From: Planktothricoides raciborskii GIHE-MW2
Lineage (GTDB): Bacteria; Cyanobacteriota; Cyanobacteriia; Cyanobacteriales; Laspinemataceae
Direction of reading: 5' to 3'
Length of the DNA: 64,000 bases
Assembly (NCBI RefSeq): GCF_040564635.1
Contig: NZ_CP159837.1
Location: forward strand, 3,149,001-3,213,000
Part shown: positions 20,226 through 36,262 of the stretch, in pieces
How positions within the stretch are numbered: the stretch's first letter is position 1
Layout: each line of letters opens with the position of its first letter
Program-made: the position numbers and the translations under genes
Notes under the pieces: model-generated
The model's database searches: none
Seen by the model: only the letters and a program-made list of their open reading frames with translations
Told to the model about the DNA's origin: nothing

Positions 20226-21302
20226 CTAGTCCTCCGCAAGCTTACAGCCCTTTTGGGCTTCTAACCATTTACGCACGACGATTTATAGTCATTTTTTCCG
20301 ATATGATTCGGATCAAACAAAATATACTTTAAATTAAAGGTTTAAATTTGTCTTTATTTACGCTTTTTTTATTAGTTACTTTTCCATGGTTAATCAATAT
20401 AATATTTTACGTTAAAATAAGATCATCGTCAACCATTTTATTTTTCATATAACATCTGTTGTTTCTGAAAATCCAATCTCATGTTTATATTTATTTATGC
20501 TTATCTTGGTGGGAAAAACTTTAAATAAATTCATTTAAAAAATGTAATTTATTTAATAAAAAACACAATTTTCATCGTTTTATTTTATATAATTTATCGA
20601 TGAAAAGTGATGGTATACTCACTGTTAAAATAAAATAATTTGATGTTGGTTGTATAAAAAATTCACCCGGTTTTGCTTGAGGTTAACCCTGATTCTTTAG
20701 CACCCAAATTATCCCAACTTATGTTACGGTAGAATGATTGTCCCTGAATAACCTTGTCTCAAATCTAAAATCAATATTGGTTTTAATCTTTACAGTTGAT
20801 TTTAGGATGCAAAATTGATCGAGTATATCCGATGCAATTTTTAAAGGTTTATTCAATGAAATTTTGATGAGATTGATTGACTGACAAAATGTTGAGCAAA
20901 CTTGACCGAAATATCGATCCAATAAGTGATTGATTATTAGAGCAAATCGGTTTGGCCAAGAAAGCGCCAAGCCATTTAAAGATTATTTGATTTGGCAGAC
21001 CCAATCAATAATCTTTAAAAACTTTTCTCAAAAAAGTTTAGCATAAGTTTAAGTATAATCGCTGGCATGGGTTGAGACTTGTTTCGATTGATTTAAGTTC
21101 CACCAAGGAAATATGCTAAATTAAAGCTTTCCCACCCTGACAATTTGTAGATTTTTAGGATCACACTTAAATCATAGTCTATGCTTGCTTCCTGGAAACC
21201 GCGATGAGTCTCAGAAGATTTTGTCGGTTGCCCGAAAATATCTGTGGATCGGGGCTGAATTCCCGGAAAATGTAGATGTTGTCAGTTAATTTTTACCCGA
21301 AA
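20226..21302. other. Long AT-rich region upstream of hetZ
   Basis: About 1.05 kb between divergent genes. The part 20340-20700 is extremely AT-rich. A minus-strand frame at 20719-20970 has no ribosome-binding site and no recognisable sequence. Probably regulatory; no specific site can be placed. Confidence 0.5.
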
Positions 21303-21809
21303 ATGGATTATTTAGACCAACAATTGCAAGTGCTGATTGACGAGGCGCCTCAAGATGGACAAACTCCACAGATTGTAATTGCGATCGCCCCTGCACTGAA
21401 AATTATCGCCAGTCAGTTACGACATTCTCAGTATTATATTCTGCAAACCCCAGATGGCCGCCAACGTTGGCGTTGGGTTGTCACCACTCTCAGTCATCGG
21501 ACACAACCCAATCTGCAAAAGCAGGTGATTTATGCCTTTGCCTCCGAGGAAGATGCCCAGACTGGATCTTGGGTCGCCCAAGGAACCCAGGCGCTGGCAC
21601 GACCCATCCCTGTCACCCATATTTTATTTCAGACGATCGCGATCGACAGCGTTGATAGCTTGGTGTTTTTTGAAACTCCCGGCGATCTTTCTCAGGGGAC
21701 AGAAGTCTCCCGGGAAAAGATTCAATTATGTATTCAGGCGGAATTGAAAAACACCCTGGGCAATCCTAGCAAATTCCAGCTTCCTCAGATCCCGAACGAT
21801 CTCGCTTGA
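21303..21809 (+). CDS. Conserved-type hypothetical protein
   Basis: 168 residues from the ATG at 21303 (MDYLDQQLQVLIDEAPQDG); an upstream ATG at 21276 is possible. The sequence is well formed with alternating strands and helices (QIVIAIAPALKIIASQL, YYILQTPDGRQRWRWVVTTL, QKQVIYAFASEEDA, HILFQTIAIDSVDSLVFFETPG) and no signal peptide or metal motif. I recognise no family. It is convergent with the prenyl synthase gene and shares a terminator with it. Confidence 0.7.
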   Translation: MDYLDQQLQVLIDEAPQDGQTPQIVIAIAPALKIIASQLRHSQYYILQTPDGRQRWRWVVTTLSHRTQPNLQKQVIYAFASEEDAQTGSWVAQGTQALARPIPVTHILFQTIAIDSVDSLVFFETPGDLSQGTEVSREKIQLCIQAELKNTLGNPSKFQLPQIPNDLA

Positions 21810-21821
21810 AATATCATCTCT

Positions 21822-21869
21822 AACCAGGCCAAAGTTATTTGCCTTTCTCAGGATAACTTTGGCCTGGTT
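21822..21869. terminator. Bidirectional terminator
   Basis: AACCAGGCCAAAGTTAT at 21822-21838 and ATAACTTTGGCCTGGTT at 21853-21869 form a perfect 17-bp stem between convergent genes. Confidence 0.85.
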
Positions 21870-21891
21870 AATTAACCACAGTCATAAAACC

Positions 21892-22863
21892 TTAGTACAG
21901 TCTCTTGAGTACATAATCAGCAAGCTTGATCAGAGCTTCACGTTCTTCACAGGGTTGGAGAACCTGGAGATTTTCTATGGCTTGCTGTGTATGGTGATTC
22001 GCTAATTGCCGAGCGCGATCGATTCCCTGACTGTCTTGAATTAGAGTCAAAGCTTGCTCTAAGTCTCCGTCCTGGGCAAACTCGCGCTCAATCAGCGTCT
22101 CTAAATAAGGTTTTTCTTCTAAGGCAAATAATGCCGGAGCCGTCAAATTGCCACTTTTCAGATCCGAACCCGCTGGTTTACCCAACGCTTCGGTAGAACC
22201 TGTGAAATCGAGGATATCATCGACGATTTGAAATGCTAAACCAATATGACGTCCGTAATTATATAAATGATCGGAGATTTCGGCTGATTTCTCACTTAAA
22301 ACCCCGACCGCTTTAGAACTGTTGGCAATTAAAGACGCTGTTTTGTAGTAACTCTTTTCCAGATAAGCTTCCAGGGATAAGCTGGAGTCAAATCGATTCA
22401 GTCCTTGCTGAATTTCCCCTTCAGCAAGATCCATAATCACTTGTGAGAGTAATTTCACCACTTCCAAATTGTCTAAGGAAGCTAAATACCAGGAAGATTG
22501 GGCAAATAAGAAGTCTCCCGCCAAAATCGCTACTCGGTTGCCAAATAGTTTATGAACGGTGTCTACTCCTCGCCGAACTTCTGATTCATCAATGACATCA
22601 TCGTGAACTAAGCTGGCGGTGTGAATCATTTCGGTAATTTCCGCCAAACGCCGATGTCGAGGAGTAATCTCCTGTGGTCGCATGGTTGCCCGTGCTAATA
22701 ACAGGACAATCGCCGGTCTAACGCGCTTTCCCCGTGCTGAGAATAGATGTTCTGCCGCAGCATACAAAATCGGGTGACGGGTGCCGACGAGGTTTTTCAG
22801 GTTCTCTGTGAGTACCAGCAGATCGGCTTCAACCGGAGCAAAAAGGGAGGTGGTTGAGGTCAT
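21892..22863 (-). CDS. sds: All-trans polyprenyl diphosphate synthase, solanesyl type
   Basis: 323 residues, a complete long-chain prenyl synthase. First aspartate-rich motif in LVHDDVIDESE (about residue 83) and second in FQIVDDILDFTG (about residue 212); GKRVRPAIVLL is the substrate-binding segment. In cyanobacteria this enzyme makes the C45 side chain of plastoquinone-9. Chain length depends on residues upstream of the first motif (MIHTASLVHDD), which are small and consistent with a long product. Symbol by family; chain length is inferred. Confidence 0.93.
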   Translation of the reverse strand: MTSTTSLFAPVEADLLVLTENLKNLVGTRHPILYAAAEHLFSARGKRVRPAIVLLLARATMRPQEITPRHRRLAEITEMIHTASLVHDDVIDESEVRRGVDTVHKLFGNRVAILAGDFLFAQSSWYLASLDNLEVVKLLSQVIMDLAEGEIQQGLNRFDSSLSLEAYLEKSYYKTASLIANSSKAVGVLSEKSAEISDHLYNYGRHIGLAFQIVDDILDFTGSTEALGKPAGSDLKSGNLTAPALFALEEKPYLETLIEREFAQDGDLEQALTLIQDSQGIDRARQLANHHTQQAIENLQVLQPCEEREALIKLADYVLKRLY

Positions 22864-23446
22864 GGATAGGCGGATTCAGACGTAAATTTACGAAAGTTTA
22901 CATATATTCTAAGCGAAGCCTCTCATATGGGAAAGTTTTCCGGGGAAAATATCCGCCAAAGCTTTACGGGGCAAAATTTTGGGAATTTTTACCAAAAATG
23001 TCTGGTATTTTCGCTTAGGGATCGAATTCTGAGGAATATTATGTTAATCTATGAATTAAGGATTCAAACAATTCCATAACCTGGACGCCACCCAAGTTGC
23101 AGGTCTGATATCTCTACCTGCGATCGCAGAGATTGGCGTGTGAGAATTTTAGGCAGCATTTGTTCTGTCTATATTGCCGCACGATCTTCAGTGATGAAGT
23201 CAGATCGTGCCTCAACCTGATACCAAAAAGCCCAAAGCACGGCCAAAAAACTTTTTGAACCCGTTGACCGACGATTTGGGTCTTGGGGTATTTTTGGCAA
23301 AATTCGCTCAACCCGATTCGTCACCGAATCGTCATCCGTCTCACGGGTTTGTCTTTTTGATTCAAACCTTATAGTTTTGCGTCGTTTGCTGTTATGCCTG
23401 CGATTGATCTTTCACTGGACGTCTCCATCACACTTCTGGCTGTACT
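22864..23446. other. Intergenic region with one palindrome
   Basis: About 580 bp between divergent genes. GCACGATCT / AGATCGTGC (23181-23212 region) form a 9-bp stem. No convincing coding frame; a minus-strand frame at 23114-23311 is basic and without family features. Confidence 0.45.
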
Positions 23447-23578
23447 ATGAATGACTTTAATATGCCGTTGATGATTCCCTTGCTCGCGACTGCTTATGTC
23501 CTAGTGATTAATTTAATGTTGCGCTTCGCACAGCGATATGCAGCAGCCTCACATTCACCGTCTCAAAAAGTTCAGTAA
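23447..23578 (+). CDS. Small single-helix membrane protein
   Basis: 43 residues from ATG 23447: a short polar start (MNDFN), one hydrophobic helix (MPLMIPLLATAYVLVINLML), then a basic, polar tail (RFAQRYAAASHSPSQKVQ). This layout is typical of very small thylakoid or plasma-membrane subunits, but I cannot match it to a known photosystem, cytochrome or NDH subunit. A terminator hairpin follows at 23699-23735, which supports a real rightward transcript. No strong ribosome-binding site is visible. Confidence 0.45.
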   Translation: MNDFNMPLMIPLLATAYVLVINLMLRFAQRYAAASHSPSQKVQ

Positions 23579-23698
23579 TTCCGAGGGTTGGCTTTAACTT
23601 TAGGGATTTGTTGAGCGTCAGTGAAGTACCGACAACGGCAGTGACTCTGTGTCTGTGCGGAAAACTCAATCCATCGCTTTTTATGTTGACCAATTTTA

Positions 23699-23735
23699 GA
23701 TGGCCTGAACTTTTTGAGTTTAGGCCATCTTTATT
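23699..23735 (+). terminator. Intrinsic terminator
   Basis: GATGGCCT / AGGCCATC stem followed by TTTATTTT, 120 bp after the small membrane protein gene. Confidence 0.7.
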
Positions 23736-23749
23736 TTGGCTATTGCTCA

Positions 23750-23860
23750 GGTGGGCAAATATTTGCCCACCCTACCGATCTACCTTTATTTTAGCTATTG
23801 CTCAGGTGGGCAAATATTTGCCCACCCTACCGATCTGAGGTGGGCAAATATTTGCCCAGG
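23750..23860. repeat. Three palindromes GGTGGGCAAATATTTGCCCA
   Basis: Copies start at 23750, 23805 and 23839. The first two are part of a 55-bp direct duplication that includes flanking sequence (TTATTTT..CTATTGCTCA). The third is slightly diverged at its 3' end. They lie between the small membrane protein and murI. Confidence 0.88.
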
Positions 23861-23891
23861 CTACCAATGGAGTGCCTAGGTGCTATTTACT

Positions 23892-24893
23892 CTAAGGATT
23901 AGCCACGGGACTGCTTTGTACCGCCTGATTTAGGTTGACTTTTTCCACTTGAGGGGTAAATCCCAGCCATTGCTTGGCTCTTTGGGCGAATTCTTCGGGA
24001 CAACCACTGACACAGAATCGCGTGGGTAGGGGCGATCGCGTTTCGGTTAAGCCGAGTAGCTCTAGTTCTCGCACCGCTGCTGCGACTACATAGACTGCTG
24101 GATCCACAAGTTCAACCGATCGCGGCAAAATCTTCTGGATTACCGGAGCCAAAAAAGGATAATGGGTGCAACCGTAGACCAATGTATCAATCTGCTGCTG
24201 CATCAGTGGGGCGAGATATTCTCTGGCGACTTCCCTAGTGTAAGGTTCATGGATCCGATTGCTTTCAATCAATGGGACAAATTCAGGACAGCCCACTTGC
24301 CAGACTCTGGCTTCTGGATCTATTTCCTGGATAGCGCGACGATAGGCATTACTGGCAGCGGTCGCAGGAGTGGCAATCACCCCAATTCTGCGTCCTTTGT
24401 TGAGCGCGGCACGGGCGCCAGGGTGAATTAATCCCAAAATTGGCAAGTCAAATTCTGATTGGATGGTTTCCAGGGCTAAAGCGGAACTGGTGTTACAAGC
24501 AACGATCGCCATTTTGATTCCCTGGGGTTCCATCCAGTGCAAAATTTCTCGGACAAACTGGATAATCTCCTCTGGGGAACGGCTGCCATAAGGCAGTCGG
24601 GCGGTATCACCGAAATAGAGGATGGATTCGTTCGGCATTTGTCGGTAAACTTCCGTTAAAACCGTTAACCCGCCCAAACCACTGTCAAACACCCCAATTC
24701 TGGCTCTTTGAGAATCTTTGCCTTTGCCGGTGAAACGCGGAGGCGATCCCGCACTGGCGGTGGATTGATGTAACACAGGATCGGGATAGGGTCGTTGTGC
24801 CTCGCAATAGGCGATTCGCTTCGCGATCCGCTCTGGCGGAATCGCGTCGGCACCAAACTGAGAATGAGAAGACGATGCTGAAAAGTTAGACAC
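23892..24893 (-). CDS. murI: Glutamate racemase
   Basis: 333 residues. The racemase begins at ARIGVFDSGLGGLTVL (about residue 64). The two catalytic Cys are in VACNTSSALALE and VYGCTHYPFLAP. MurI makes D-glutamate for peptidoglycan. The first 63 residues are not part of the usual enzyme; they include RIAKRIAYCEAQR, encoded by repeat-like DNA (24797-24850), so the true start may be internal, or the N-terminus has been extended by repeat insertion. A remnant of a cell-wall amidase lies upstream, which fits a once larger cell-wall locus. Confidence 0.9.
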   Translation of the reverse strand: MSNFSASSSHSQFGADAIPPERIAKRIAYCEAQRPYPDPVLHQSTASAGSPPRFTGKGKDSQRARIGVFDSGLGGLTVLTEVYRQMPNESILYFGDTARLPYGSRSPEEIIQFVREILHWMEPQGIKMAIVACNTSSALALETIQSEFDLPILGLIHPGARAALNKGRRIGVIATPATAASNAYRRAIQEIDPEARVWQVGCPEFVPLIESNRIHEPYTREVAREYLAPLMQQQIDTLVYGCTHYPFLAPVIQKILPRSVELVDPAVYVVAAAVRELELLGLTETRSPLPTRFCVSGCPEEFAQRAKQWLGFTPQVEKVNLNQAVQSSPVANP

Positions 24894-24919
24894 AGGTAGT
24901 TGATGTTAGAGATATTCAA

Positions 24920-25604
24920 TAATATGTGAACAAGAGTCGATGATGTGCAAGCAACTCAAAACAAATGAGCCCGATCGCTATCCCAGACAAACTAGATTCA
25001 GTCTAGTTTTATCGGCATGAGCCAAAATTTCCCGGTCAATCTTGATTGATTTTTCGGGAGATGCTTGTAGGTACTGACGAAAATCCTAGCATTGACTCGT
25101 TCTGCGTTCTTGTACCCTGGGGTCTACATCAATTTCTGGGTCATCGCGACGAGTTAAAACCGTTTTTACCCCAAACTGTTCTAAGTTCGTGGCAACTTGC
25201 AGGGTAATGGAGAGGACTATGCTGCATCTGTATGCGGTCATTTCTCCACTGCTTTGAATCAAAAAACCTTTTTAATCGGTTGTTTCCACTTTTTTGACTT
25301 CAATGGGATTCCGACTTGGGGAACTGTAATCAGGAGAATCTGAAGGGATTATGTGGTTTTGTGGACATTAGGGAAAATCTGACCGAGTTGTAGGTGCATT
25401 AGGGACAGCCCCACAATCGTGACGCTGCCGAATCATATTAGTAAATCAAGTTAGTAAATCAAGGATGGGGCGATCGCGATGCTTAATTATGCGAGACTGG
25501 AGACAAATCTTTATCTATGATTTTACCGATGATAACGAATAACTCAACAAAATCATCACAGGATCGCGGCTTTAAACCCGTTGCTTGTTAGCAGACAGCA
25601 TATT
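24920..25604. other. Decayed region between murI and a STAND ATPase
   Basis: Contains a small hairpin (AAACTAGATTCAGTCTAGTTTT near 24988-25010), an amidase remnant (25064-25241) and about 360 bp (25242-25604) in which I see no gene. A short direct repeat TTAGTAAATCAAG occurs twice near 25437-25465. Confidence 0.6.
25064..25241 (-). pseudogene. Fragment of an N-acetylmuramoyl-L-alanine amidase (AmiC type)
   Basis: On the minus strand from 25241: IVLSITLQVATNLEQFGVK, then TVLTRRDDPEIDVDPR, which matches the middle of amidase_3 enzymes (KDVVL.I.LQVA..LEQ.GV...TR..D....). The frame then shifts and continues as NAERVNARIFVSTYK, equal to the A.RVNA..FVSIHAN segment. The metal-binding His of the SIHAN motif is lost (STYK). 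Both ends are missing. Next to murI it probably marks a deleted amiC gene. Confidence 0.7.
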
Positions 25605-26945
25605 TTAACCACAATTTCTCAGATATTCTCGAAAAACCGTAGATAAATCAAACAAAATCGCATCCCTTTCGATTGATTTGACTAAATAGCGTTTTTTCAA
25701 AGATTGTAACCCATTAATCAAGTTGATTTCGGATAAGGATACAGCTTTTCTTAAATACTCTCTTGACACAGGTTGGTTAGATTTACTGATTTCTAAGACA
25801 ATTTGCTGTTCCAGCGCGGATAAGCGATCTAACAATTCACTAAGGAGAAATTTCATATCTTCGGTTAGCAGCAGACTTTCTGCTTGTAAAAACTCAGAGA
25901 CTTTACCCCCAAAAATACTTTTAATTAAAATAGCAATATCTTTTAAATAAACTGGATGCCCTTCGTATCGGTTTAGCAGGGTTAACCAGCTTGCCTCATC
26001 TTTTAATCTCAATTTTTTCAAAATAGCCGGACTATCTAATCCCTGTAATTCTAAACATTTCACCGGATACAACTCCTCATCTAAGCCAATCATCTCTTGG
26101 CATTGTTCCTGACTGATTAATATCACAAGACTTTGATGGTCAATTTCGGCGATTTTTGTGAAAAAGCTTTTATAGTCTTTAAATTCTGGTTTGTACTGTC
26201 CGGCAAATTGTCCGCTGGTAAATAACTCTTGGACATCATCAAGGACGATTAAACATTTTTGCTCACATAACAGGTTGAAAAATTGGGTTAAGTTATGCTG
26301 ATTTTGAATAGGATCGGGATGAGTTGCGCTTAAAATTTCCGTCAGAATGGTATCTAAAGACGGAGTGAGTTTGATGCTTTTCCATATCACCAGATCAAAT
26401 TTTGGTAAATTTAGGTCAACAAACTGTTTAACCAGGGTGGTTTTACCAATTCCACTGAGTCCCAAAACTGAGATGAGATGGGGGTTTTGATTGGTTATCC
26501 AGTGGGATAGGGTTTGGAGTTCAGTTTCTCGTCCGCAGAAATGGGTAATTTTTGGCGCTAGGGCTAAATCGTAGTAGGATTTGTTAGCAAAATTTTGTTC
26601 AGTAGTTTTAGCAGAATTTTGAGGATTATTAGAGCACAGATTAATATGACTATTAATTAATAAGACTTGCTGTAAATTATTATCCGATTTCGCGAATCTT
26701 TTTATTGTCCAAATAAAATTTGATTTATTAACGGCTTCTCCTAATTGATCTGACAAAATATGCCATAATTTATACCCCACATCTCTGACTCGACTTTCAC
26801 TATGATTACACTCATCGGCTATATCATTGTAAGTTTTTCCCTGCCAAACTCCTTTAATCAGAGTTTCCTGAAGATCGTCTAAGTGTTTTCCCGTCTGCTC
26901 GAATACGAGGCGATCGGCCAATTGTAAAACTTCTGTAACATTCAT
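25605..26945 (-). CDS. STAND (NB-ARC-like) ATPase with VMAP-type N-terminal helix-turn-helix
   Basis: 446 residues from ATG 26945 (MNVTEVLQLADRLVFEQTGKHL); an in-frame ATG at 26972 is also possible. The N-terminal 90 residues match the helix-turn-helix found at the start of vWA-MoxR-associated and related cyanobacterial signalling proteins (GKTYNDIADECNHSESRVRDVGYKLW). Then an NB-ARC ATPase: Walker A VLGLSGIGKTTLVKQF (about residue 165), Walker B CLIVLDDVQEL, and a winged-helix part. No C-terminal sensor repeats and no effector domain follow. Such ATPases act in regulated signalling or defence. A second gene with the same N-terminal domain is at 38567. Confidence 0.8.
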   Translation of the reverse strand: MNVTEVLQLADRLVFEQTGKHLDDLQETLIKGVWQGKTYNDIADECNHSESRVRDVGYKLWHILSDQLGEAVNKSNFIWTIKRFAKSDNNLQQVLLINSHINLCSNNPQNSAKTTEQNFANKSYYDLALAPKITHFCGRETELQTLSHWITNQNPHLISVLGLSGIGKTTLVKQFVDLNLPKFDLVIWKSIKLTPSLDTILTEILSATHPDPIQNQHNLTQFFNLLCEQKCLIVLDDVQELFTSGQFAGQYKPEFKDYKSFFTKIAEIDHQSLVILISQEQCQEMIGLDEELYPVKCLELQGLDSPAILKKLRLKDEASWLTLLNRYEGHPVYLKDIAILIKSIFGGKVSEFLQAESLLLTEDMKFLLSELLDRLSALEQQIVLEISKSNQPVSREYLRKAVSLSEINLINGLQSLKKRYLVKSIERDAILFDLSTVFREYLRNCG

Positions 26946-27087
26946 AAAAGCTATGTAGGCTAACGGTTTCATTTATTTTAGCTTAACAGATTAAAGCATT
27001 TTACGACATTTCACGATGTTTTTGGCAATATATCTTAACAAAAGACACGATTTAATCAGGCATTTTAGGATTATGAAAAAACTGATT

Positions 27088-27123
27088 ACATGATAGATTA
27101 ATCATTGATTAATTTATCATGTA
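27088..27123. promoter_or_regulatory. 36-nt near-perfect palindrome upstream of the peptide gene
   Basis: TACATGATAGATTAATCA and TTGATTAATTTATCATGTA are inverse repeats with one mismatch. It ends 13 bp before the ribosome-binding site of the Cys-rich peptide gene. It could be an operator for a dimeric regulator or a transcript hairpin. It is too close to the start to be the terminator of a neighbour on the plus strand. Confidence 0.6.
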
Positions 27124-27145
27124 CAATTTCTGCATAGGAGTAAAA

Positions 27146-27301
27146 ATGAATTCTTTTCTGTCATCTATTATGATGAATTTTGAGAAATGCTTAGAAGTTC
27201 CTAGCTTCAATGTAATTATCGGCCATGAAAAATTACATACAAATTATGCTTCAAGTATTTGCGGCTGTGAGGGCACATGTGATGCTTGTGAAAATTATTA
27301 A
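27146..27301 (+). CDS. Cys-rich small peptide, likely RiPP precursor
   Basis: 51 residues from ATG 27146, chosen because AGGAG sits 5 bp upstream; the frame is open from 27119 but without a ribosome-binding site. The first 38 residues have the look of a leader (MNSFLSSIMMNFEKCLEVPS..); the end is CGCEGTCDACENY with Cys at 39, 41, 45 and 48 alternating with acidic residues. A radical SAM/SPASM enzyme is encoded 335 bp downstream on the same strand. Cys-rich peptides beside SPASM enzymes are typical substrates for sactipeptide- or ranthipeptide-type crosslinking. I know no named family with this core. Function is inferred from context. Confidence 0.7.
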   Translation: MNSFLSSIMMNFEKCLEVPSFNVIIGHEKLHTNYASSICGCEGTCDACENY

Positions 27302-27318
27302 TCTAGCTAGTCATCTGA

Positions 27319-27402
27319 CTGGATGGAAGTCTAGGATGTGATTCACCAGGATGTGATGCTTGCGATTCATGCGACAGTGATTTAAGTATCGATCTAAGGT
27401 AA
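27319..27402 (+). other. Orphan second Cys-rich core, no start codon
   Basis: A stop-to-stop frame reads GSLGCDSPGCDACDSCDSDL and then SIDLR before TAA. It repeats the CDAC pattern of the peptide encoded just upstream, is in a different frame and has no usable start after the TGA at 27316. It looks like the core of a second precursor whose leader is lost or frameshifted. Confidence 0.5.
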
Positions 27403-27505
27403 TAAGCTGTTAATCGTTTAAATTGGGGATCTGGATTCCAGAAGCCAGGAAACCTCGGCTGTCAGAGAGTTTAACTTATCTCAATCTAAATGCGTAACAG
27501 CTTAT
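27402..27505 (+). promoter_or_regulatory. Long stem-loop region in the peptide-maturase spacer
   Basis: ATAAGCTGTTA (27402-27412) pairs with TAACAGCTTAT (27495-27505); inner segments such as CTGGATTCCAG and GTTTAA/TTTAAC can pair too. No coding frame. Could be an RNA structure in the leader of the maturase transcript. Confidence 0.45.
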
Positions 27506-27541
27506 CAGCTTTGTCAGGTCACAAAAAATCATTGCCTATTT

Positions 27542-27596
27542 AAGAATGCTTCCTAAAAAATCTACATACGACAAACAAAAATAAGGAAGCATTCTT
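27542..27596 (+). promoter_or_regulatory. Hairpin just before the radical SAM gene
   Basis: AAGAATGCTTCCT and AGGAAGCATTCTT are exact inverse repeats separated by 29 nt. Placed between precursor and enzyme genes, it could lower transcription or translation of the enzyme relative to the peptide. It lacks a clear U-tract. Confidence 0.5.
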
Positions 27597-27636
27597 GGGG
27601 TTTAAATTTACTTTATTTTTTTACAGTGAGGCAAAA

Positions 27637-28680
27637 ATGCCAAATAACACAAGAGTATCCCAGTTAAGTTATATATGGATTAATCTTACTTCTAAGTGTA
27701 ATAATAGATGTTTCTATTGTTACGATGCTGGACATTCTGTCTCAGAAATAAATACTAACACTGTTATCAAAATCCTGGATTTAATTAGTGAATTAAAATT
27801 AAAGCAACTCATTTTGATTGGTGGTGAACCTACTATACATAGTAATTTTTTAGATATACTAAGGCTTTGCTCAGAAAAAGTAAAAAAACCGACTATTATC
27901 ACAAATGGGTTTCGCTTTGCTGACGAGCTATTTTGTAAAGATGTCTGTGAAATCGGTGTAACGGGCGTATTGTTCTCTGTACTTGGGCCTAGTGCCACTA
28001 TCCATGACGCTGGAACGAAGAGACAAGGAAGCTTTGACCAAATCGTAAAAGGAATTGAAAACTTAAGACATCTAATAGACATTGACAAGATTCGGACAAT
28101 TACAACCATTACAAAACGCAACCTAATCAACCTTAAAGAAATTATTGATCTGAATATAAGTTTTGGCTTAAAGCGTACAATATTCAATCTTTGTACCCCT
28201 TCAATTCTTGAAAAAGAGTTAGATTTATGTTTGAATCCCACAGAGTATTCAGCAATTATTGAGGATTTGTATCTATACTCTAAAAAGAATAATCATTTTA
28301 TAGAAATAGGAACAAATGTTCCAAAATGCCTTTTTAAAAAAGAACTAATCGAAAACTTGATATCAAGTGGTGTCATCAGATTTTCCCCATGTCAGCTATA
28401 TCGATCATCAGGAATTCAATTTTTAAGCGATGGCTCAGTTACTCCCTGCACTCATCTTTACGACGAAGTGCTTGGGAATCCTATAGAAAGAGGTTTTTCT
28501 ATTTCAGAATTTATGGATTGGCTGAATTATTCTACTCCAAAAGATTTCCGTGAAAATATGTGGAGATATCCATCTGAAGAATGCAAGAGATGCAAAGAAT
28601 GGGGCAACTGCACTGGGGGTTGTCCATTAATGTGGAGCAAGCATAATCCTACCGACTTTTTGCAAGCTATTTTACAATAG
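27637..28680 (+). CDS. Radical SAM/SPASM domain enzyme, probable peptide maturase
   Basis: 347 residues from ATG 27637, preceded by GAGG; a TTG at 27595 is an alternative. The radical SAM cluster motif is CNNRCFYC (Cys 21, 25, 28), followed by LILIGGEPT, the SAM-binding GGE motif. The C-terminal SPASM region holds six Cys (FSPCQLY, VTPCTHLY, ECKRCKEWGNCTGGCPL) for auxiliary clusters. SPASM enzymes modify small peptides. The upstream Cys-rich peptide is the likely substrate. No protease, transporter or RRE-containing gene is adjacent. The gene is AT-rich and without HIP1 sites, unlike its surroundings, suggesting transfer. Its TAG stop lies in the end of a small inverted-repeat element. Confidence 0.88.
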   Translation: MPNNTRVSQLSYIWINLTSKCNNRCFYCYDAGHSVSEINTNTVIKILDLISELKLKQLILIGGEPTIHSNFLDILRLCSEKVKKPTIITNGFRFADELFCKDVCEIGVTGVLFSVLGPSATIHDAGTKRQGSFDQIVKGIENLRHLIDIDKIRTITTITKRNLINLKEIIDLNISFGLKRTIFNLCTPSILEKELDLCLNPTEYSAIIEDLYLYSKKNNHFIEIGTNVPKCLFKKELIENLISSGVIRFSPCQLYRSSGIQFLSDGSVTPCTHLYDEVLGNPIERGFSISEFMDWLNYSTPKDFRENMWRYPSEECKRCKEWGNCTGGCPLMWSKHNPTDFLQAILQ

Positions 28681-28760
28681 ACCTCTTGCAAAATTCCTGC
28701 AAAGCCCCCCTTTTTAAGGGGGGTTGGGGGGATCGAGATATTTATTTTGCAAGAGGTCTA
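28678..28760. mobile_element. MITE-like element with 17-bp terminal inverted repeats
   Basis: TAGACCTCTTGCAAAAT at 28678-28694 and ATTTTGCAAGAGGTCTA at 28744-28760 are exact inverse repeats. The interior has a second stem (CCCCCCTTTTTAAGGGGGG). No coding capacity. The left TAG is used as the stop codon of the radical SAM gene. Confidence 0.82.
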
Positions 28761-28893
28761 ATAAATCATTGTGCTTATTCCGCAGCCCATTTCTTTTCAT
28801 TAAATCAAAGATGCGATCGCGTAGCGTTGCGGATGCAATATCGCTGAGATAATCAACTTAACCAACTGTCCCACCCTTCCAGTGTCAATGTAT

Positions 28894-29034
28894 TTAAGAA
28901 TGCTTGTCTAACAATTTTTCTAAGAAGCGATCGGATGCCCAAAAAGATGTGTTTTGCAGGGTTTGAATCGTTGCCGGTAAATCGATTAACTGCATCGTTG
29001 CGGCTCGATCTAAAATTACCAGAATACCCGCAAA
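28894..29034 (-). pseudogene. DUF3368/PIN-like toxin remnant
   Basis: Minus-strand frame: FAGILVILDRAATMQLIDLP, then ATIQTLQNTSFWASDRFLEK and LLDKHS before a stop. The final FW.SDR..E..L pattern resembles the C-terminus of DUF3368 PIN-like toxins. The N-terminal catalytic part is missing. It lies downstream of an antitoxin remnant, the usual order for UPF0175-DUF3368 pairs. Identification rests on a short stretch. Confidence 0.5.
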
Positions 29035-29060
29035 TCTTAAAAAATAGCAACAATAATCAT

Positions 29061-29362
29061 TCAGTTCCTAGTAAGTTACTTATGGCTTGGACATCGGCTT
29101 CTAAATCTGTTTCACTATCAGGTAAGTAAGCTTATTCATCTTTGAGGAATTGATAGGTTTCCCATCGCGATGAAAAATTGAGCATTCTGTGGACTTCTGC
29201 GGCACCAATCCGACCTTGACTATAGTGATCTGCTGCAATCAGTTCTAAAAATCGGCGGGAAATATTGTTGTTTTGCAGTTGTAGTCGATCGGCTAGAGTT
29301 GAAATTGCAGAGTAACAACCATGTATAGCCGCAAAATTCTTGACCCATGGGAAGTCCCACAT
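29061..29362 (-). pseudogene. UPF0175-like antitoxin, interrupted by a stop codon
   Basis: From the ATG at 29362: MWDFPWVKNF..., then STLADRLQLQNNNISRRFLE, LIAADHYSQGRIGAAEVHRM and LNFSSRWETYQFLKDE before TAA at 29132-29134. The frame then continues as AYLPDSETDLEADVQAISNL to a TGA at 29061, which fits the usual C-terminus of such proteins (TY.FL....AYLP...DLE.D...L). One nonsense change probably truncated it. The upstream region, where the normal N-terminus and promoter should be, is occupied by the 25-bp tandem array. Confidence 0.65.
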
Positions 29363-29391
29363 CCGGGCTAGTCCCACTCTAGATATTTCCG

Positions 29392-30110
29392 GCGATATGC
29401 CATGCGGCACGCGAAAGCGATATGCCATCCGGCACGCGAAAGCGATATGCCATCCGGCACGCGAAAGCGATATGCCATCCGGCACGCGAAAGCGATATGC
29501 CATCCGGCACGCGAAAGCGATATGCCATCCGGCACGCGAAAGCGATATGCCATGCGGCACGCGAAAGCGATATGCCATCCGGCACGCGAAAGCGATATGC
29601 CATCCGGCACGCGAAAGCGATATGCCATCCGGCACGCGAAAGCGATATGCCATCCGGCACGCGAAAGCGATATGCCATCCGGCACGCGAAAGCGATATGC
29701 CATCCGGCACGCGAAAGCGATATGCCATCCGGCACGCGAAAGCGATATGCCATCCGGCACGCGAAAGCGATATGCCATCCGGCACGCGAAAGCGATATGC
29801 CATCCGGCACGCGAAAGCGATATGCCATCCGGCACGCGAAAGCGATATGCCATCCGGCACGCGAAAGCGATATGCCATCCGGCACGCGAAAGCGATATGC
29901 CATCCGGCACGCGAAAGCGATATGCCATCCGGCACGCGAAAGCGATATGCCATCCGGCACGCGAAAGCGATATGCCATCCGGCACGCGAAAGCGATATGC
30001 CATCCGGCACGCGAAAGCGATATGCCATCCGGCACGCGAAAGCGATATGCCATCCGGCACGCGAAAGCGATATGCCATCCGGCACACGAAAGCGATATGC
30101 CATCCGGCAC
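29392..30110. repeat. Tandem array of a 25-bp unit, 28 full copies plus a partial one
   Basis: The unit starts GCGATATGCCATCCGGCACG and repeats in exact 25-bp register from 29392 to 30091, then 19 bp of a 29th copy. Copies are almost identical; copies 1 and 7 read CATGCGG and copy 28 reads GGCACAC. There are no spacers. Because 25 is not a multiple of three and no stop occurs, long frames are open on both strands with a 25-residue period; these are not genes. The core GCCATCCGGCAC is shared with dispersed repeats at 17577, 17814 and 18779. Confidence 0.97.
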
Positions 30111-30842
30111 ACTTCGCGATCGCCCTGTTTGTTAAGAATTATATACGAGATATTTACTAGGGACTCCCAGCAGTTAATTTTTCACTTAAATAGCACTAAT
30201 ACCCATCAACGGTTTTCCCAAGCTAAAAGGATAATGATCTATAGCTGGAAAAATCTTCCCTGAATCACTTACCGCGATTTTTTGGCAAAATTAATGAAAA
30301 ATATATGTTATAATCAATCCAGACATCGTTAACGCAACAACATAGAACTACTCTTCTATAGAGTGCGCCCCATAGCATTCCCAGATTTTTGCTAATATAA
30401 TGATGTTAGTGCTTAAAGTACACTAGCCATGTAGCTGGGAGTCTCCTGTTGCCAACAACCGTGATTTATAGCTGGCTTTGTGGAAAATGACATAAATCCT
30501 CAGCAGAATAGAATCAGACTCAGTAAAATGGTCACTAACAGTGACTTCCTGTTTTATCTGGCTGAATTAATGTTTAACTCTCCCTAGCTCCTTTGAAAGT
30601 GGCACGACTCAGCGTCGCTACCACTGACATTCAGTAAAGTTCTCTAGGCTAAAAGGATCCGGTTTCAACTTCTTGGCAATTGGCTATGACCATAGCTGTT
30701 CTCAGAAAAAGTTGCTCTCTTTGCTCCCCTTCACCTGCAAACGTAGGTGTGTTTAAGCTTTTGAGCAGCGATACTGAATTGTCAAGAGATCGAAACCCAG
30801 ACTCGACCCCCGCTGACCAGTTAATGAATTGCATCATCTCTA
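30111..30842. other. Long leader region upstream of infC
   Basis: About 730 bp. Starts with the degenerate end of the tandem array (CTTCGCGATCGCC). No credible coding frame; a minus-strand frame at 30649-30837 has no family features. A promoter and leader for infC are expected here but no site can be placed with confidence. Confidence 0.5.
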
Positions 30843-31376
30843 ATGCCTGTGATTAACAAAAAACATAATCGAGATTTACCACAGATCAACGAAAGAATTC
30901 GCTTTCCCAAAATTCGGGTTATTGACACGAACGGCGACCAACTGGGGATTTTGACTCCTCAAGAGGCTCGACAAATTGCCCAAGAGAGAGAACTCGACTT
31001 GGTTTTAGTCAGCGATAAGGCGGATCCACCAGTCTGCCGAGTGATGGACTATGGCAAGTACAAGTTTGAGCAAGAGAAGAAAGTACGAGAAGCCAAGAAA
31101 AAACAGCATAATGCTGAAGTTAAGGAAGTGAAGATGCGCTATAAGATTGAAGAGCACGATTACCAAGTGCGTCTGAATCAAGCCAAGCGCTTCCTAGCAT
31201 CAGGGGACAAGGTGAAAGCCACCATTATGTTCCGAGGCCGCGAAATTCAACATAGCGATCTGGCCGAGAGTCTGCTTCAGCGGATGTCAAAAGATTTGGA
31301 AGAAATAGCAGATATTCAGCAAAGTCCCAAAAAAGAGGGACGGATGATGATGATGTTACTCGCTCCTAAAAAATAA
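30843..31376 (+). CDS. infC: Translation initiation factor IF-3
   Basis: 177 residues, complete. N-terminal domain with [22 protein letters not shown], the basic linker ([19 protein letters not shown]), and the C-terminal domain with [22 protein letters not shown] and [14 protein letters not shown]-3 binds the 30S subunit and proofreads start codons and initiator tRNA. The ATG at 30843 gives the usual N-terminus. A terminator hairpin follows at 31477, so the gene appears monocistronic here. Confidence 0.97.
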
Positions 31377-31891
31377 CGCTTAGATATTAGTCAATAAATA
31401 TCACATAAACGGGTTCGGTCCAAAGAGTGTTTGGTGGTTTTGGCGCCGGAATGAATTGGCCATAATCACCGCAAGATAGATGTGTTAATCGACATCTATT
31501 TTTGGGGATCGGCCTTTTTTTTGACTGGTTTTTGGGTAAAAAAACGAAAATTAATAATCAATTAATCAAATTAAATTAAAACCAAAAAATATTTTTGGCA
31601 TTTTTTTACATAAAAAGAATATAAAAAAATGAAATTAAATACAGATTTTATTAGGATAAAATGATGATAAGATTGATGATAAGATTGCATGGGGAAGAAT
31701 TGTTTAAGCATCAGAAGAAAACATCAGGGATACCGATGAGTTGCTGATGAGTTGCTGACTTAAGCCGCGAATTGACCATAAGTCAGTCAAAATCGCTCAA
31801 AATAAATGATGTTGGCTGAGTCATTCAGTGAACGTGATAGTTATATATATGTGATCAGGAAACATCTCAAGGCGGAGGAAATCAGCGCTGC
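31377..31891. other. Spacer between infC and the NTT-like gene
   Basis: Contains the infC terminator and then about 390 bp of AT-rich sequence with no gene. The final part, up to GGCGGAGGAAATCAGCGCTGC, includes the ribosome-binding site of the next gene. Confidence 0.5.
31477..31503 (+). terminator. Terminator after infC
   Basis: TAGATGT / ACATCTA stem with an 8-nt loop followed by TTTTT. Confidence 0.75.
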
Positions 31892-34800
31892 ATGGAATTG
31901 AAAGATCGGCGTTTAGCTAAGGGTGTATTGGGACGATCGGTGCTGCAATGGCTGAATTTGCGGCCAGATGAAGCAGAACGAACTGGGTTGATGTTCGCGT
32001 TTTATACCACTACTTCGGTGGGACTGCTGTGGTTGGAAGCGACTGCGGTGGGTCTGCTGTTGGGAGAGTATGGGGCGGGATCGCTGCCTTGGATTTATAT
32101 TGCCGGAGCGGGCTTGGGTTCGGCTTTGGGCTTGTTTTATTCTTGGCTGCAAAAAATTCTGCCTCTGCGTCGGGTGATTGTGGCGATCGCCCTGTTAATC
32201 GCGATTCCCCTGATTTTCTGCCGCTTTGGTTTGACGGTGCAAGGTTCGATTCTTTACGGCATCACGGTCTTTTTGTTGCGACTGTGGGTGGAAAGTATTT
32301 ATATTTTGAATGACTTGAATACCGCGATCGCCGCCAATCAACTATTTAATATTCGGGAAATCAAGCGGACTTATCCCATTGTCAGTAGTGGCATCTTACT
32401 GGCTGATGTAGTTAGCGGCTTTTCTCTGCCGTTTATTCTCAAATGGTTTGGCCTGCCTAATGTGATTTTGGCGGCATTTATCATGTTTTGTAGCGGGGCT
32501 GGTATTCTGTATTATTTGAGCGATCGCTACAAACAAGCCTTTCCCGACGCTCCGGCACACCTAATCGAAGACGAAGAAACCCGGTTTGCCAACAAACGCC
32601 TCCAAGGAGAACAACGGGGCTATGTGGTGCCACTAATTATCTTTTTTCTTTTGTCGCCCATTCTCTATCTGCTGATTGACTTCCAATTCCTGAGTATGTT
32701 GGAAGCCCAAAGCCCATCAGAAGAAAGTATCGCCAGCTTTATCGGCATCTTCAATGGGAGCTTAGGCATTTGTGAAGTCATGGTTCAATGGTTTATTGCC
32801 AGTCGATTAATTGAAAGATTTGGCGTCTTTGTCTCGGCGACAATTCTACCAATTGGCATTGTGGCGATCGGGGTGATAGAACTCTTCATCATCCTCTGGT
32901 TTCCCGGCAGCAGCAAGGGTCAAATCGCCTTTGTCATCTTTGCCGGTTTAGTGGCGCTAAAATTTTGGAATGAACTGTTTCACTACACCCTCTCCGAAGC
33001 CAGTGGCCCCGTATTATACCAGCCCCTGCCAGATAGCAATCGCAATCGCTTACAATCATTCATTGGCGGAGTCCTCAAGCCTCTGTGTAATGGCCTCACC
33101 GGGTTAGCCATGCTGGGAATTATCGGGTTATGTCGCTGGGTAGTCAGCAACATCTCAGGGGCAGATCAGTGGCAGAATCTACAAGATTTATTATTTTTAG
33201 CCTTGATTGTCGCCAGTGCGGTGACTTGGCTATTTGCCATAGGAATTATTCGCTCTCGGTATGTGCGTTTATTGGTTTCCAGTGCGGAACGAGGACGCCT
33301 CGGTGTCTCGGACGTGGATATGCGGACTTTTAAGCGCACGGTGATTGAAAACCTGGAAAAGCCAGGTTCTTTGGAAGACAAACGTTCCTGCATTGAACTC
33401 CTGAGTCAAATTGACCCAGAAAATGTTGGAGAAGTCCTGGCACCGTTGCTGCTGGAAATGCCACCGGCTTTACAAAGTCAAAGCTTAGAGACAATGCTGA
33501 ACCATCCCAAGCCAACCCAACTCCAAGCGGTCAAAGCTTTGATCGATCAACCGTCTCTCTCTCCAGAAGTTTTGGCCTTGGGGCTACGCTTTTTCTGGCT
33601 GATGGAGTCCGAGCAAGACCTGGAGCAACTGCGACCATATCTGCAACAGGAAATCGATCCGGTGGTGCGCGGAACTGCCGCTGCCTTGATTATGCGCCGT
33701 GGCAACCGCGAACAAAAAGCGGAGGCGACGAATACGTTGCGGCGAATGGTGACGCACAAACAGGAACGGGAACGAGTGATGGGTTGCCGCGCTTTGGGAG
33801 AAGCGGATTATTTACAAGGGTTGCGGCTTTATATTCCTAATTTGTTGCAGGATGAGTCGATTCGAGTGCGCTGTGCTTTGCTGGAAGTGATTGCTTCCAC
33901 CCGATTAGAGGAATATTATTTCTCTCTGTTGCGGGGACTTTACTACAAGTCTACTCGCGAGTCGGCGATGCGAGCTTTGGTGCGATTGGGCAATGAGGTG
34001 TCAGGGCGATTAGTGGCTTTGGCCGAAGATATCCATAAGCCAGAGTTGGTCAGATTGCACGCTTGGAATGTGTTGGGAGAAATGGGCACCCGGGAATCTC
34101 TGGATTTGTTGGTGCTGCATTTAGCTAGTTCTTGGGGGCATACTCGCCGGAATATTCTGCGGATTTTGCTGAAGCGACCGAATGATTCGGGGATTGAACG
34201 AGTTTTAGATGTGTTTGGTCGTTCCGGGGTGGAGATTTTTATTGAGCAAGAGTTGATGTTTATGGGTCAGGTCTATGCGGCTTTGGTGGAAATCCCCGAG
34301 GAAGCGGTTTCTGGTCGAGAAGCGAATTTGCTGCGTTCCGGGTTGAGAGATTTGTTGTCCGATGCGAGCGATCGCCTCTTTTTATTGATGCGATTCCTTT
34401 ATCCCACGGAACGAATTCAAGCGGCTTCATTTAATCTGAAGTCCGGTCAACGGTCGAATATTGCTCGCGGTTTAGAAATTTTAGACAATACCTTCGATCT
34501 TCCCAGTAAGCGAGTGTTGCTGAATGTGTTGGATCGCCAATCCGATCGCGAAAAGCTGGAGCATTTGTCGCCGATGATTGACTACCAGAATATGACCCCG
34601 AGCGATCGCGTCCGCCGATTATTAGAGTTACGACACTTTTTGTCGGACTGGCCCTTAGCCTGCTGTTTTCACTTAGCCCGTGTCCAGCGTTGGAGTCTGA
34701 CTCCTGAATCCACCTTAGCCTGTTTGCGCCATCCCAAGGGTTTTGTCCGCGAAGCGGTCTTAGCCTATCTCCGATTAGCGTCCCCTCGGGCTTTGGCGGA

Positions 34801-34969
34801 ATTGCTGCCGATGATGAAAAACGACCCCGATCGCTTGGTGGCAGCGCAAGTACGAGAAATGATGAAAGATTTAGGGGTGAGCGATTCTACTCAATCCCGT
34901 TACGGCAATTCTTTACAGGATAGCCGGATTGTTAACTATCCCGGAATGGCTGGTTTTGAAGGCACATAA
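31892..34969 (+). CDS. NTT-like (ATP/ADP-translocase-type) membrane protein with C-terminal HEAT repeats
   Basis: 1025 residues. Residues 30-460 hold about twelve hydrophobic helices (GLMFAFYTTTSVGLLWLEAT, LPWIYIAGAGLGSALGLFY, VVPLIIFFLLSPILYLLIDF, LQDLLFLALIVASAVTWLFA) in the order of the NTT/Npt family, a branch of the MFS. Residues 480-1000 consist of helical repeats of HEAT type (VVRGTAAALIMRRGNREQKA, IRVRCALLEVIAS, PKGFVREAVLAYLRL). The substrate is unknown; true nucleotide transport is unproven for such cyanobacterial forms. A cyclic-nucleotide-binding protein is encoded 209 bp downstream; related proteins carry these domains fused. Confidence 0.82.
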   Translation: MELKDRRLAKGVLGRSVLQWLNLRPDEAERTGLMFAFYTTTSVGLLWLEATAVGLLLGEYGAGSLPWIYIAGAGLGSALGLFYSWLQKILPLRRVIVAIALLIAIPLIFCRFGLTVQGSILYGITVFLLRLWVESIYILNDLNTAIAANQLFNIREIKRTYPIVSSGILLADVVSGFSLPFILKWFGLPNVILAAFIMFCSGAGILYYLSDRYKQAFPDAPAHLIEDEETRFANKRLQGEQRGYVVPLIIFFLLSPILYLLIDFQFLSMLEAQSPSEESIASFIGIFNGSLGICEVMVQWFIASRLIERFGVFVSATILPIGIVAIGVIELFIILWFPGSSKGQIAFVIFAGLVALKFWNELFHYTLSEASGPVLYQPLPDSNRNRLQSFIGGVLKPLCNGLTGLAMLGIIGLCRWVVSNISGADQWQNLQDLLFLALIVASAVTWLFAIGIIRSRYVRLLVSSAERGRLGVSDVDMRTFKRTVIENLEKPGSLEDKRSCIELLSQIDPENVGEVLAPLLLEMPPALQSQSLETMLNHPKPTQLQAVKALIDQPSLSPEVLALGLRFFWLMESEQDLEQLRPYLQQEIDPVVRGTAAALIMRRGNREQKAEATNTLRRMVTHKQERERVMGCRALGEADYLQGLRLYIPNLLQDESIRVRCALLEVIASTRLEEYYFSLLRGLYYKSTRESAMRALVRLGNEVSGRLVALAEDIHKPELVRLHAWNVLGEMGTRESLDLLVLHLASSWGHTRRNILRILLKRPNDSGIERVLDVFGRSGVEIFIEQELMFMGQVYAALVEIPEEAVSGREANLLRSGLRDLLSDASDRLFLLMRFLYPTERIQAASFNLKSGQRSNIARGLEILDNTFDLPSKRVLLNVLDRQSDREKLEHLSPMIDYQNMTPSDRVRRLLELRHFLSDWPLACCFHLARVQRWSLTPESTLACLRHPKGFVREAVLAYLRLASPRALAELLPMMKNDPDRLVAAQVREMMKDLGVSDSTQSRYGNSLQDSRIVNYPGMAGFEGT

Positions 34970-35178
34970 GTTTCCCGGACAGACGCCCGAACCCCTATCC
35001 CCAGTCGGGGCAATTCATCCTTTGTCCCGACTGCTTAGGCTCATTGTTGGATTCAGCAAGTCCCGAAAGCAGTACAATGTCGATTGTCAACCCACCCAAG
35101 CTAGGTAGACCCGAATCTCAAATCTTTGTAAATGCTTGTTTTTTATTATATAAAAATAAAATATAAGGGTGTAGATAA

Positions 35179-35637
35179 ATGCTGACGAGCGTTGAGCGAT
35201 TACTATTTGTCAGGGGCGTTCCAATTTTTAAAGAACTGCGTGACGATTTTCTGGTGCGGTTAGCATCGGTGATGGATGAATTGTCTTTTCCTAAAGAATA
35301 TACTATTTTCACCGAAGGACAAGAAGGACGCGCTCTGTATATTGTGGTTTCGGGTCGAGTGCGGGTTCACTTGGGTAATCGAGATTTAGCGGAACTGGAT
35401 GAGGGCGCTTGTTTTGGGGAGATGTCTTTGTTTGATTCTGAGCCCCGTTCGGCTTCTATTACGACTTTAGAACCTTGTGATTGCTTGGTTTTGACTCAGC
35501 AGCAACTTTATGATGCGATCGATGAAACCCCTGGAATTGCGGTTAATATTATTCGTCTCTTATCGCGGCGGATTAGAGAATTAAATCGGAAAAGTCAAGA
35601 AGGGGAAACGCATCAAAAACCAGTTATTTCAAAGTAA
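35179..35637 (+). CDS. Cyclic-nucleotide-binding domain protein
   Basis: 152 residues, a single cNMP-binding domain of the Crp/Fnr type: FKELRDDFLVRLASVMDEL, IFTEGQEGRALYIVVSGRV, and the phosphate-binding cassette FGEMSLFDSEPRSASITTLE with the conserved Glu and Arg. No helix-turn-helix follows, so it is not a transcription factor by itself. Probably a regulatory partner of the preceding HEAT/NTT-like protein. ATG preceded by AAGGGTG. Confidence 0.9.
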   Translation: MLTSVERLLFVRGVPIFKELRDDFLVRLASVMDELSFPKEYTIFTEGQEGRALYIVVSGRVRVHLGNRDLAELDEGACFGEMSLFDSEPRSASITTLEPCDCLVLTQQQLYDAIDETPGIAVNIIRLLSRRIRELNRKSQEGETHQKPVISK

Positions 35638-35978
35638 AATTTGGGCGCAAATTTGCCCATATTATTGCCGTAATATGGCCAGGGAAACATTTCTCTGGCT
35701 TTTAACCCACATTCCGCACATCTTCATATATCGTTACATATCTTAACTCTATTCAGGATGTTTTTACGAAAAACTGCCATTACAGGAATACTTAATAATA
35801 AAACTTATCAATAGCTAATTTTTATGAGAAAATTTATTACAATTATTCATATTATGGGCAATGAATCCTGATAACTAGAATGCTTACAGGATAAAGATTA
35901 CAAGCGATATATTAGTAAAAATAATTCATTAAATGTTAAGAAGTGCGGAATGTGGGATTAATTATGTTCACCTACTTA

Positions 35979-36215: not shown

Positions 36216-36262
36216 GCTGACTACTATGTCTGATTCATCTGAATAGTTTACCTCTGTAGTGG

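Follow-up and report, generated by a model that had tools for sequence, protein, structure and literature searches.

A 64,000-nt stretch of the Planktothricoides raciborskii GIHE-MW2 genome (assembly GCF_040564635.1, contig NZ_CP159837.1, positions 3,149,001 to 3,213,000 of the forward strand; hereafter the window, whose own numbering is used below) contains a 3.3 kb island holding the gene for a STAND (NB-ARC) ATPase and, divergently from it, a pair of genes for a small Cys-rich peptide and a radical SAM enzyme (Table 1). A preliminary description of this DNA had recognized the pair as a candidate locus for a ribosomally synthesized and post-translationally modified peptide (RiPP); its view of the locus as two genes has to be given up, the divergent ATPase lying in the same island, and an out-of-frame second core, two inserted repeats and a palindrome with 18-bp arms are further features that it did not include. 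The locus is interpreted here as an exchangeable accessory cassette of RiPP type, in which the STAND ATPase is combined with a divergent precursor peptide and a radical SAM maturase, and we place the probability of this reading at roughly 0.55.

The small gene with a strong ribosome-binding site was correctly described: its 51 codons specify MNSFLSSIMMNFEKCLEVPSFNVIIGHEKLHTNYASSICGCEGTCDACENY, with CGCEGTCDACENY as the C-terminal end. A comparable open reading frame (ORF) arose in none of 20,000 first-order Markov shuffles of the 664-nt region 26973-27636, under a criterion chosen post hoc (an ORF of at least 40 residues led by AGGAG or GGAGG, with at least four Cys in the last 15 residues). 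Searches with the peptide recovered no match in NCBIfam, Pfam or PADLOC. By layout alone the arrangement is that of a RiPP cassette, with a small ORF that combines a leader-like part with a distinct core and adjoins the gene for a possible peptide-modifying enzyme. The intact core holds one CX3E (C45-E49). Downstream of the peptide is a degenerate second core-like stretch, GCDSPGCDACDSCDSD, which is preceded by two stops and holds CX3D twice. The two cores share a 14/15-nt repeat (27277-27291 and 27351-27365, at a spacing of 74 nt), the like of which was seen in 1 of 1000 shuffles, and the second core is best read as what is probably left of a precursor that was longer or arranged in tandem. 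With this second core out of frame, behind two stops and devoid of a start, with repeat elements at 27396-27504 and 28676-28762, and with tandem precursors at the sister locus L136 (see below), the locus might alternatively be a dead or dying one, in which the enzyme is intact and the precursor has been reduced from a longer form with several cores or in tandem; given the strong ribosome-binding site and start of the first peptide, and the uninterrupted 347-codon enzyme gene with its CX3CX2C motif intact, this appears rather unlikely.

A same-strand radical SAM enzyme with a CX3CX2C motif and a six-Cys SPASM region had also been proposed. The former is borne out by C21/C25/C28 of the 347-residue product and by its match to the Pfam Radical_SAM profile (75.4 bits, cut-off 29.5). 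As to the latter, SPASM-type cysteines are present from C231 to C329 (C231-X20-C252-X18-C271-X44-C316-X2-C319-X5-C325-X3-C329); the set is incomplete, the last Cys after CX2CX5CX3C being absent and the Pfam SPASM match staying under its cut-off (17.7 bits against 21.5). This last Cys is kept in two distant relatives, both from a Nanoarchaeota contig (L010). A Foldseek comparison of an AlphaFold2 model of the enzyme (built from 19 sequences, mean predicted local distance difference test score 78.6) with the PDB recovered SuiB with its precursor SuiA first, followed by BlsE, SkfB and the thioether-bond entries 5wgg and 5why (presumably CteB), and viperins also appear. The modelled fold fits a peptide maturase, and other substrates would be possible too.

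The ATPase shows a clear NB-ARC domain (40.2 bits, Pfam cut-off 23.5), and its residues 19-64 give a weak match to sigma-70-ECF (14.8 bits, cut-off 42.9) in what appears to be a helix-turn-helix (HTH)-like region. The gap in HIP1 sites noted earlier is indeed present, from 25470 to 28813. Taken alone as a sign of transfer it was rejected, longer HIP1-free gaps being found elsewhere in the window (34602-38959 and 40701-44966). The reported AT-richness also holds, with a GC content of 35.4% in the island and 33.8% in the block 26973-28680 against 43.2% in the window, and the suggested mobility is supported by comparison of the window's own genome (G000) with a genome of the same species (G419) and one of the same genus (G001). 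On contig C8 of G001 the left flank joins the right flank at a HIP1 octamer, the shared GCGATCGCG, and the island is absent; the left-flank match on C8 comprises 118 nt at 88% and 22 nt exact, the first 522 bases of this contig are unmatched, and the remaining left flank is on contig C70. The site is regarded as empty because of this short left piece on C8 and because G001 has no ATPase closer than 54%. In G419 the left and right flanks are 98.6% and 100% identical to those of the window and enclose an allele of the ATPase (gene 89%, protein 84% amino acid identity); the match ends 13 nt upstream of the start codon, and the DNA differs up to 29293, past the right HIP1 site, with genes for a STAS-PLP (pyridoxal phosphate) decarboxylase and a GNAT protein replacing the pair. 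Between the two ATPase genes, identity is 94-98% in the distal part and falls to 58-68% in the final 330 nt, which specify the N-terminus; the exchange thus also affected the HTH-like end. Further to the right, at 29392-30110, the window has a 25-bp tandem array of 28.8 copies (99% match), of which the G419 copy has about two units.

Similar exchange is seen at other STAND sites. Among seven sites compared by blastn between G000 and G419 (L157/L172 being outside this comparison), five are unchanged and two, the window and L127, are swapped; the counterpart of L127 in G419 (L164) has a CDC48-like AAA ATPase and two further genes as cargo. Between G000 and G001, L123 and L127 are swapped, L122 is kept with extra genes and the window site is without the ATPase, while the pairings of L124, L125 and L126 with L168 of G001 turned out not to be orthologous. 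In place of the L123 cargo G001 has a 492-residue radical SAM gene (L167; PapB-like, 95.2 bits), and in place of that of L127 a 96-residue ORF and a 171-residue gene (L169). In the three swaps outside the window, the match extends for about 70-100 nt beyond the ATPase on its upstream side. The cargo-side (N-terminal) end of the ATPase diverges together with the cargo in two of the four swaps, both between G000 and G419; in the L127/L164 pair it is 75-88% identical against 97-99% elsewhere in the gene.

In G000 the ATPase has 38 matches at E 1e-40, two of which are halves of one broken gene, giving 37 genes including that of the window. With 36 regions fetched, and L155 falling on the gene also read as L145, cassettes were read at 35 other loci and the window, part of the readings being repeated with limits of 55 residues and 3.5 kb. 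Most cassettes are separated from the ATPase by a few hundred bases, and they are very diverse in content. Seven of the 36 are RiPP-like and divergent, namely the window, L123, L126, L127, L136, L146 and L156 (Table 1). The best NCBIfam match of the L126 ATP-grasp enzyme is a peptide maturase (221.7 of 350 bits); the FxsB/YhhB-like enzyme of L136 scores 389.6 bits (cut-off 445), and radical SAM and HExxH hits arranged as at L136 recur in G419 and G001. The candidacy of the window cassette as a RiPP locus is strengthened by several sister loci with recognizable RiPP machinery, one of which, L127, has a like-sized Cys/acid-rich peptide by a radical SAM enzyme; judged from their sequences, the window and L127 pairs would at best be analogous. 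Across 79 STAND loci, a set that includes orthologous ones, a search for small ORFs led by a ribosome-binding site, with at least four Cys in the last 20 residues, gave four finds: the L127 peptide, and those at L142, L151 and L152, each of which sits within or against a longer frame. As a separate observation, a STAND gene of G001 is adjoined by a 375-residue radical SAM gene with a candidate 56-residue ORF upstream (L170:2241-2411, plus strand), which was read by eye and lacks a ribosome-binding site by the criterion used for the sister peptides. Relatives of the STAND ATPase also occur on 75 plasmid records of PLSDB, 34 of them from Nostoc, all at less than 60% identity.

The association of RiPP enzymes with these ATPases was evaluated by a rotation test, in which the positions of the STAND genes were shifted along the G000 chromosome relative to those of its radical SAM hits. 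Four radical SAM hits lie divergently within 4 kb of STAND genes against 0.34 expected (P=0.0005); with the window left aside, at least three such neighbors within 4 kb gave P=0.0063. At 1.5, 2.5 and 5 kb the values were P=0.0002, 0.0016 and 0.001, and with one neighbor fewer P=0.0083, 0.022 and 0.0115. Similarly, both HExxH hits of G000 lie divergently beside STAND genes, an arrangement matched in none of 50,000 rotations; the two tests both include L136 and are hence not fully independent. In G001, 3 of 33 radical SAM hits lie beside a STAND gene, as counted by eye. Among 28 STAND loci from other genomes, two from other cyanobacterial families (L254 and L265) are possibly RiPP-like, combining a peptide of 58-65 residues that ends in a Thr/Asp-rich stretch with a 280-330-residue gene that has no Pfam or NCBIfam match. 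There being no clear cases outside the genus, the enrichment is a property shown for G000 only.

Table 1. Features of the island (window positions) and of RiPP-like cassettes at sister STAND loci of the same genome (locus positions)
Feature	Positions	Strand	Remarks
HIP1 octamer	25470-25477		left island edge
HTH-like and NB-ARC/STAND ATPase	25605-26972	-	455 residues; transcribed away from the peptide gene
Palindrome, candidate operator	27087-27123		two 18-bp arms, 94% complementary, 1-nt center; between ATPase and peptide
AGGAG ribosome-binding site	27136-27140	+	5 nt ahead of the peptide ATG
Candidate precursor peptide	27146-27301	+	51 residues, ATG start
Cys/acidic core	27260-27298	+	CGCEGTCDACENY; peptide residues 39-51
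Degenerate second core	27319-27399	+	LDGSLGCDSPGCDACDSCDSDLSIDLR; other frame than the peptide; no ATG/GTG/TTG start
Repeat with inverted ends	27396-27504		overlaps the end of the second core
13-bp perfect inverted repeat (hairpin in RNA)	27542-27596	+	between peptide and enzyme
Radical SAM/SPASM-like enzyme	27637-28680	+	347 residues, uninterrupted
Dispersed repeat (like a miniature inverted-repeat transposable element)	28676-28762		abuts the enzyme stop codon
HIP1 octamer	28813-28820		right island edge
L123 cassette			HExxH hydroxylase over cut-off, methyltransferase, candidate 83-residue peptide
L126 cassette, graspetide-type	L126:2530-4391	+	76-residue acid-rich peptide, 188-residue gene, ATP-grasp with MvdD domain over Pfam cut-off
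L127 cassette			PapB-like radical SAM (116.1 bits, cut-off 340), 201-residue GNAT-like gene (by eye), 51-residue peptide
L127 peptide	L127:4522-4677 (G000:C1 ~6026921)	+	Cys/acid-rich, ending HCDCGHDCCPCNSECK; after the radical SAM and GNAT-like genes
L136 cassette	L136:2587-5632	+	two tandem near-identical 58-residue peptides, FxsB/YhhB-like radical SAM, HExxH hydroxylase over cut-off
L146 cassette			C39 peptidase, 132-residue peptide; RiPP-like call rests on the C39 peptidase
L156 cassette			radical SAM domain and B12 match under cut-off; RiPP-like call rests on these

The DNA around the pair has several structured elements. The palindrome between the ATPase and peptide genes scores 15, a value reached by none of 60 mononucleotide shuffles, and is the strongest in 18 intergenic stretches of STAND loci, that of L164 also beating 60 of 60 shuffles and those of L169 and L126 nearly all, with differing sequences. 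The RNA folding of 27300-27640 is more stable than that of shuffles (z -4.0), largely because of the repeat at 27396-27504, of which G000 and G419 each have one more copy (94% in both), and the 13-bp hairpin. The dispersed repeat at the end of the enzyme gene is found elsewhere in G000 in 49 rows at 43 places; truncation of the enzyme by it is unsupported, the in-frame stop sitting at the edge of the repeat. Promoter and terminator scans stayed at chance level, and a search of 24800-30900 at the Rfam gathering threshold gave no match.

Several points weigh against a RiPP cassette, one set of which concerns the enzyme. Its SPASM Cys set is incomplete, the SPASM half of its model is of low confidence, and its SAM motif starts at residue 21, leaving no space for an N-terminal RiPP recognition element (RRE) domain. 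In NCBIfam it matches a broad range of profiles, all weakly; AhbD, the best curated profile (77.8 bits, cut-off 500), HxsC and NirJ2 lead, and these, ScmF and the other matches are all far under cut-off. PapB (NF047865) comes eighth with 64.8 bits, and missing the cut-off of 340 so widely, the enzyme is placed by its sequence outside the PapB family. The best PDB sequence match is BlsE (41 bits) and the PADLOC viperin models match at 54 bits, which, together with AhbD as the leading profile, with BlsE in second place and viperins in the fold search, and with a PLP decarboxylase and no peptide enzyme at the same STAND site of G419, might imply a small-molecule or nucleotide substrate for the enzyme, in the manner of BlsE, viperin or the heme pathway, the short Cys-rich ORF being incidental. 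Given that the SPASM-type Cys set is largely there, that an ORF with a Cys tail and a strong ribosome-binding site is unlikely by chance, and that the sister cassette L127 combines a similar peptide and a radical SAM enzyme, we consider such a small-molecule function improbable.

A second set of points concerns relatives. The enzyme was searched for in overlapping samples of 59 genomes of relatives, 386 of the phylum and 388 of the order, each including its own genome, and in a genome-contig scan, plasmids, phages and viral contigs, metagenomes lying outside the scope. No other genome among the 59 had a match at E 1e-15, and weak superfamily matches were seen in 97 of the 385 other phylum genomes (E 1e-10) and 25 of the 387 other order genomes (E 1e-9); the best-scoring match in these samples reaches 27% identity across 225 residues, and the highest identity is 46%, across 73 residues (G420, E 1.7e-10). 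The genome-contig scan, which relied on exact 8-residue words such that a relative could slip through, gave two loci at 26-29%. Of two enzymes compared from beside other STAND genes the nearest is that of L170 (31% over 133 residues), and the L127 enzyme, at 25 bits, is no near relative. The peptide has no match at E 0.01 in 387 other genomes of the class (388 with its own) and nothing in plasmids beyond matches at E 4 and 8. Neither has an orthologue in the genomes searched, and the check for co-conservation proposed in the preliminary description hence lends no support; by that description's own refutation rule, their being found nowhere else counts against the assignment. As an observation apart, an IMG/VR contig has a 68-residue ORF ending NCNCNCACACGRGGL (L208:1590-1796, plus strand), located roughly 1 kb ahead of a radical SAM gene, from which a further ORF separates it.

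To these are added points from the loci themselves. Most of the cassettes read, 29 of 36, are unlike RiPP loci; among their products, as named by eye, are GTPases, secreted proteins, beta-propeller-like proteins and unknowns. By eye, too, 1 of 31 radical SAM hits in G419 lies beside a STAND gene and none does in two genomes of other genera of the family (G006 and G003). No common operator was found across the window and 17 other intergenic stretches. The ATPases of L127/L169 (86-100% per 150-nt block) and L123/L167 (93-100%) show no clear change with cargo, and their lowest blocks lie away from the cargo-side end. The broken second core and the two repeats in or at genes suggest that the locus may be decaying. 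Finally, passages of PMC7159879 state that bacterial STAND proteins, although work on them has mostly treated them as transcription regulators, are probably closer in their action to their eukaryotic counterparts. The divergent ATPase end, the short left flank in G001 and the fewer cases in G419 cut both ways.

The cassette shares features with several known systems. With the PapA/PapB ranthipeptide (freyrasin-type) system it shares an enzyme of similar size that matches NF047865 over nearly its full length (model positions 2-318 of 330) and a core in which Cys is followed by acidic residues, with one CX3E; it differs in its low score, its irregular spacing in place of six CX3D/E and the absent last SPASM Cys, and its bond is a prediction. 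The thioethers of PapB join Cys to the beta- or gamma-carbon of Asp or Glu, at a loss of 2 Da each. The FxSxx-COOH/FxsB cyclophane systems join a radical SAM maturase and a TPR protein in their NCBIfam family name, and the latter we take to be NB-ARC-like; the window ATPase weakly matches the TPR-protein model NF040586 (25 bits against 300, residues 139-197 only), and L136 has an FxsB-like enzyme. They differ in that FxsB is outside the best 25 of the 80 profiles matched by the window enzyme and that the peptide end is not FxSxx. SCIFF, sactipeptide and SuiB-type maturases carry an N-terminal RRE domain; the window enzyme resembles them in its radical SAM fold and SPASM-like Cys set and differs in having no space for an RRE and in its core pattern.

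In the STAND/MoxR-vWA conflict systems, as described in passages of PMC7159879, STAND-type NTPases of multicellular bacteria are combined with variable effectors, among which, in the FtsH ternary systems, is a radical SAM protein with a proposed peptide substrate. By this likeness, and with an AHH nuclease (G419, 27.8 bits, cut-off 22.3) and GTPases in other STAND-linked cassettes, the island might be a conflict or defence module with the ATPase as sensor-effector and the peptide or enzyme as an effector resembling a toxin, instead of a secreted natural product. This alternative is judged unlikely given that no MoxR or vWA gene was seen by eye among the island ORFs, the three main ones of which were searched against Pfam, and that the PADLOC matches of the ATPase are weak (best 33.5 bits); further differences are that the ATPase is divergent from its cargo and unfused.

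On the RiPP reading, the maturase would recognize the N-terminal part of the 51-residue peptide and then modify its Cys-rich tail (residues 39-51), forming PapB-like thioethers from Cys to a carbon of a nearby downstream Asp or Glu, with C45-X3-E49 as the obvious pair. Passages of PMC9413430 describe how PapB crosslinks Cys-Xn-Asp, with n=0-6, and tolerates Glu as well. In one subgroup of ranthipeptide enzymes, the AuxI cluster has an open site at which the substrate binds (passages of PMC10452713); in the window enzyme C231 could provide a fourth AuxI ligand, and the open-site model may then be inapplicable. The ATPase would sense a signal and switch the cassette on, a control proposed because of its position, the weak match in the HTH region, the co-changing ends in two of four swaps and a remark on regulators in PMC7159879. 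The STAND genes would hold the place at which strains swap cargo, at times together with the N-terminal end of the ATPase. In agreement with the preliminary description, no exporter or protease was seen by eye, without a family search, in the ORF list for 20000-36000, where a 1025-residue membrane-like protein (31892-34969) is unexamined; export and processing genes might thus be located elsewhere, or the product might stay inside. The product might act on other cells or on invaders.

More generally, and more tentatively, the dozens of divergent HTH-STAND ATPases of filamentous cyanobacteria might be docking points for cargo that strains swap wholesale, at times along with the matching N-terminal end of the ATPase. 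RiPP pathways of unrelated chemistries (graspetide, cyclophane, HExxH, and radical SAM with Cys/acidic cores) would be one preferred class, and the window cassette and L127 would both represent a Cys/acid-core type under the control of immune-like switches. The listings and abstract openings of the open-access literature gave no account of STAND loci as swap sites of RiPP cassettes, and no paper was found there on FxSxx-COOH terms; the passages of a graspetide phylogenomics study that list regulators tied to ATP-grasp loci do not include STAND ATPases (PMC8939145), and the main text of PMC8195603 does not mention radical SAM or RiPP. RiPP cassettes are usually found singly, via their enzymes. 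If the above proposal is true, STAND ATPases, used as markers of swap sites, would lead to RiPP types unlike anything known, as is the case with the present enzyme, and bacterial immune-like switches would be tied directly to peptide production.

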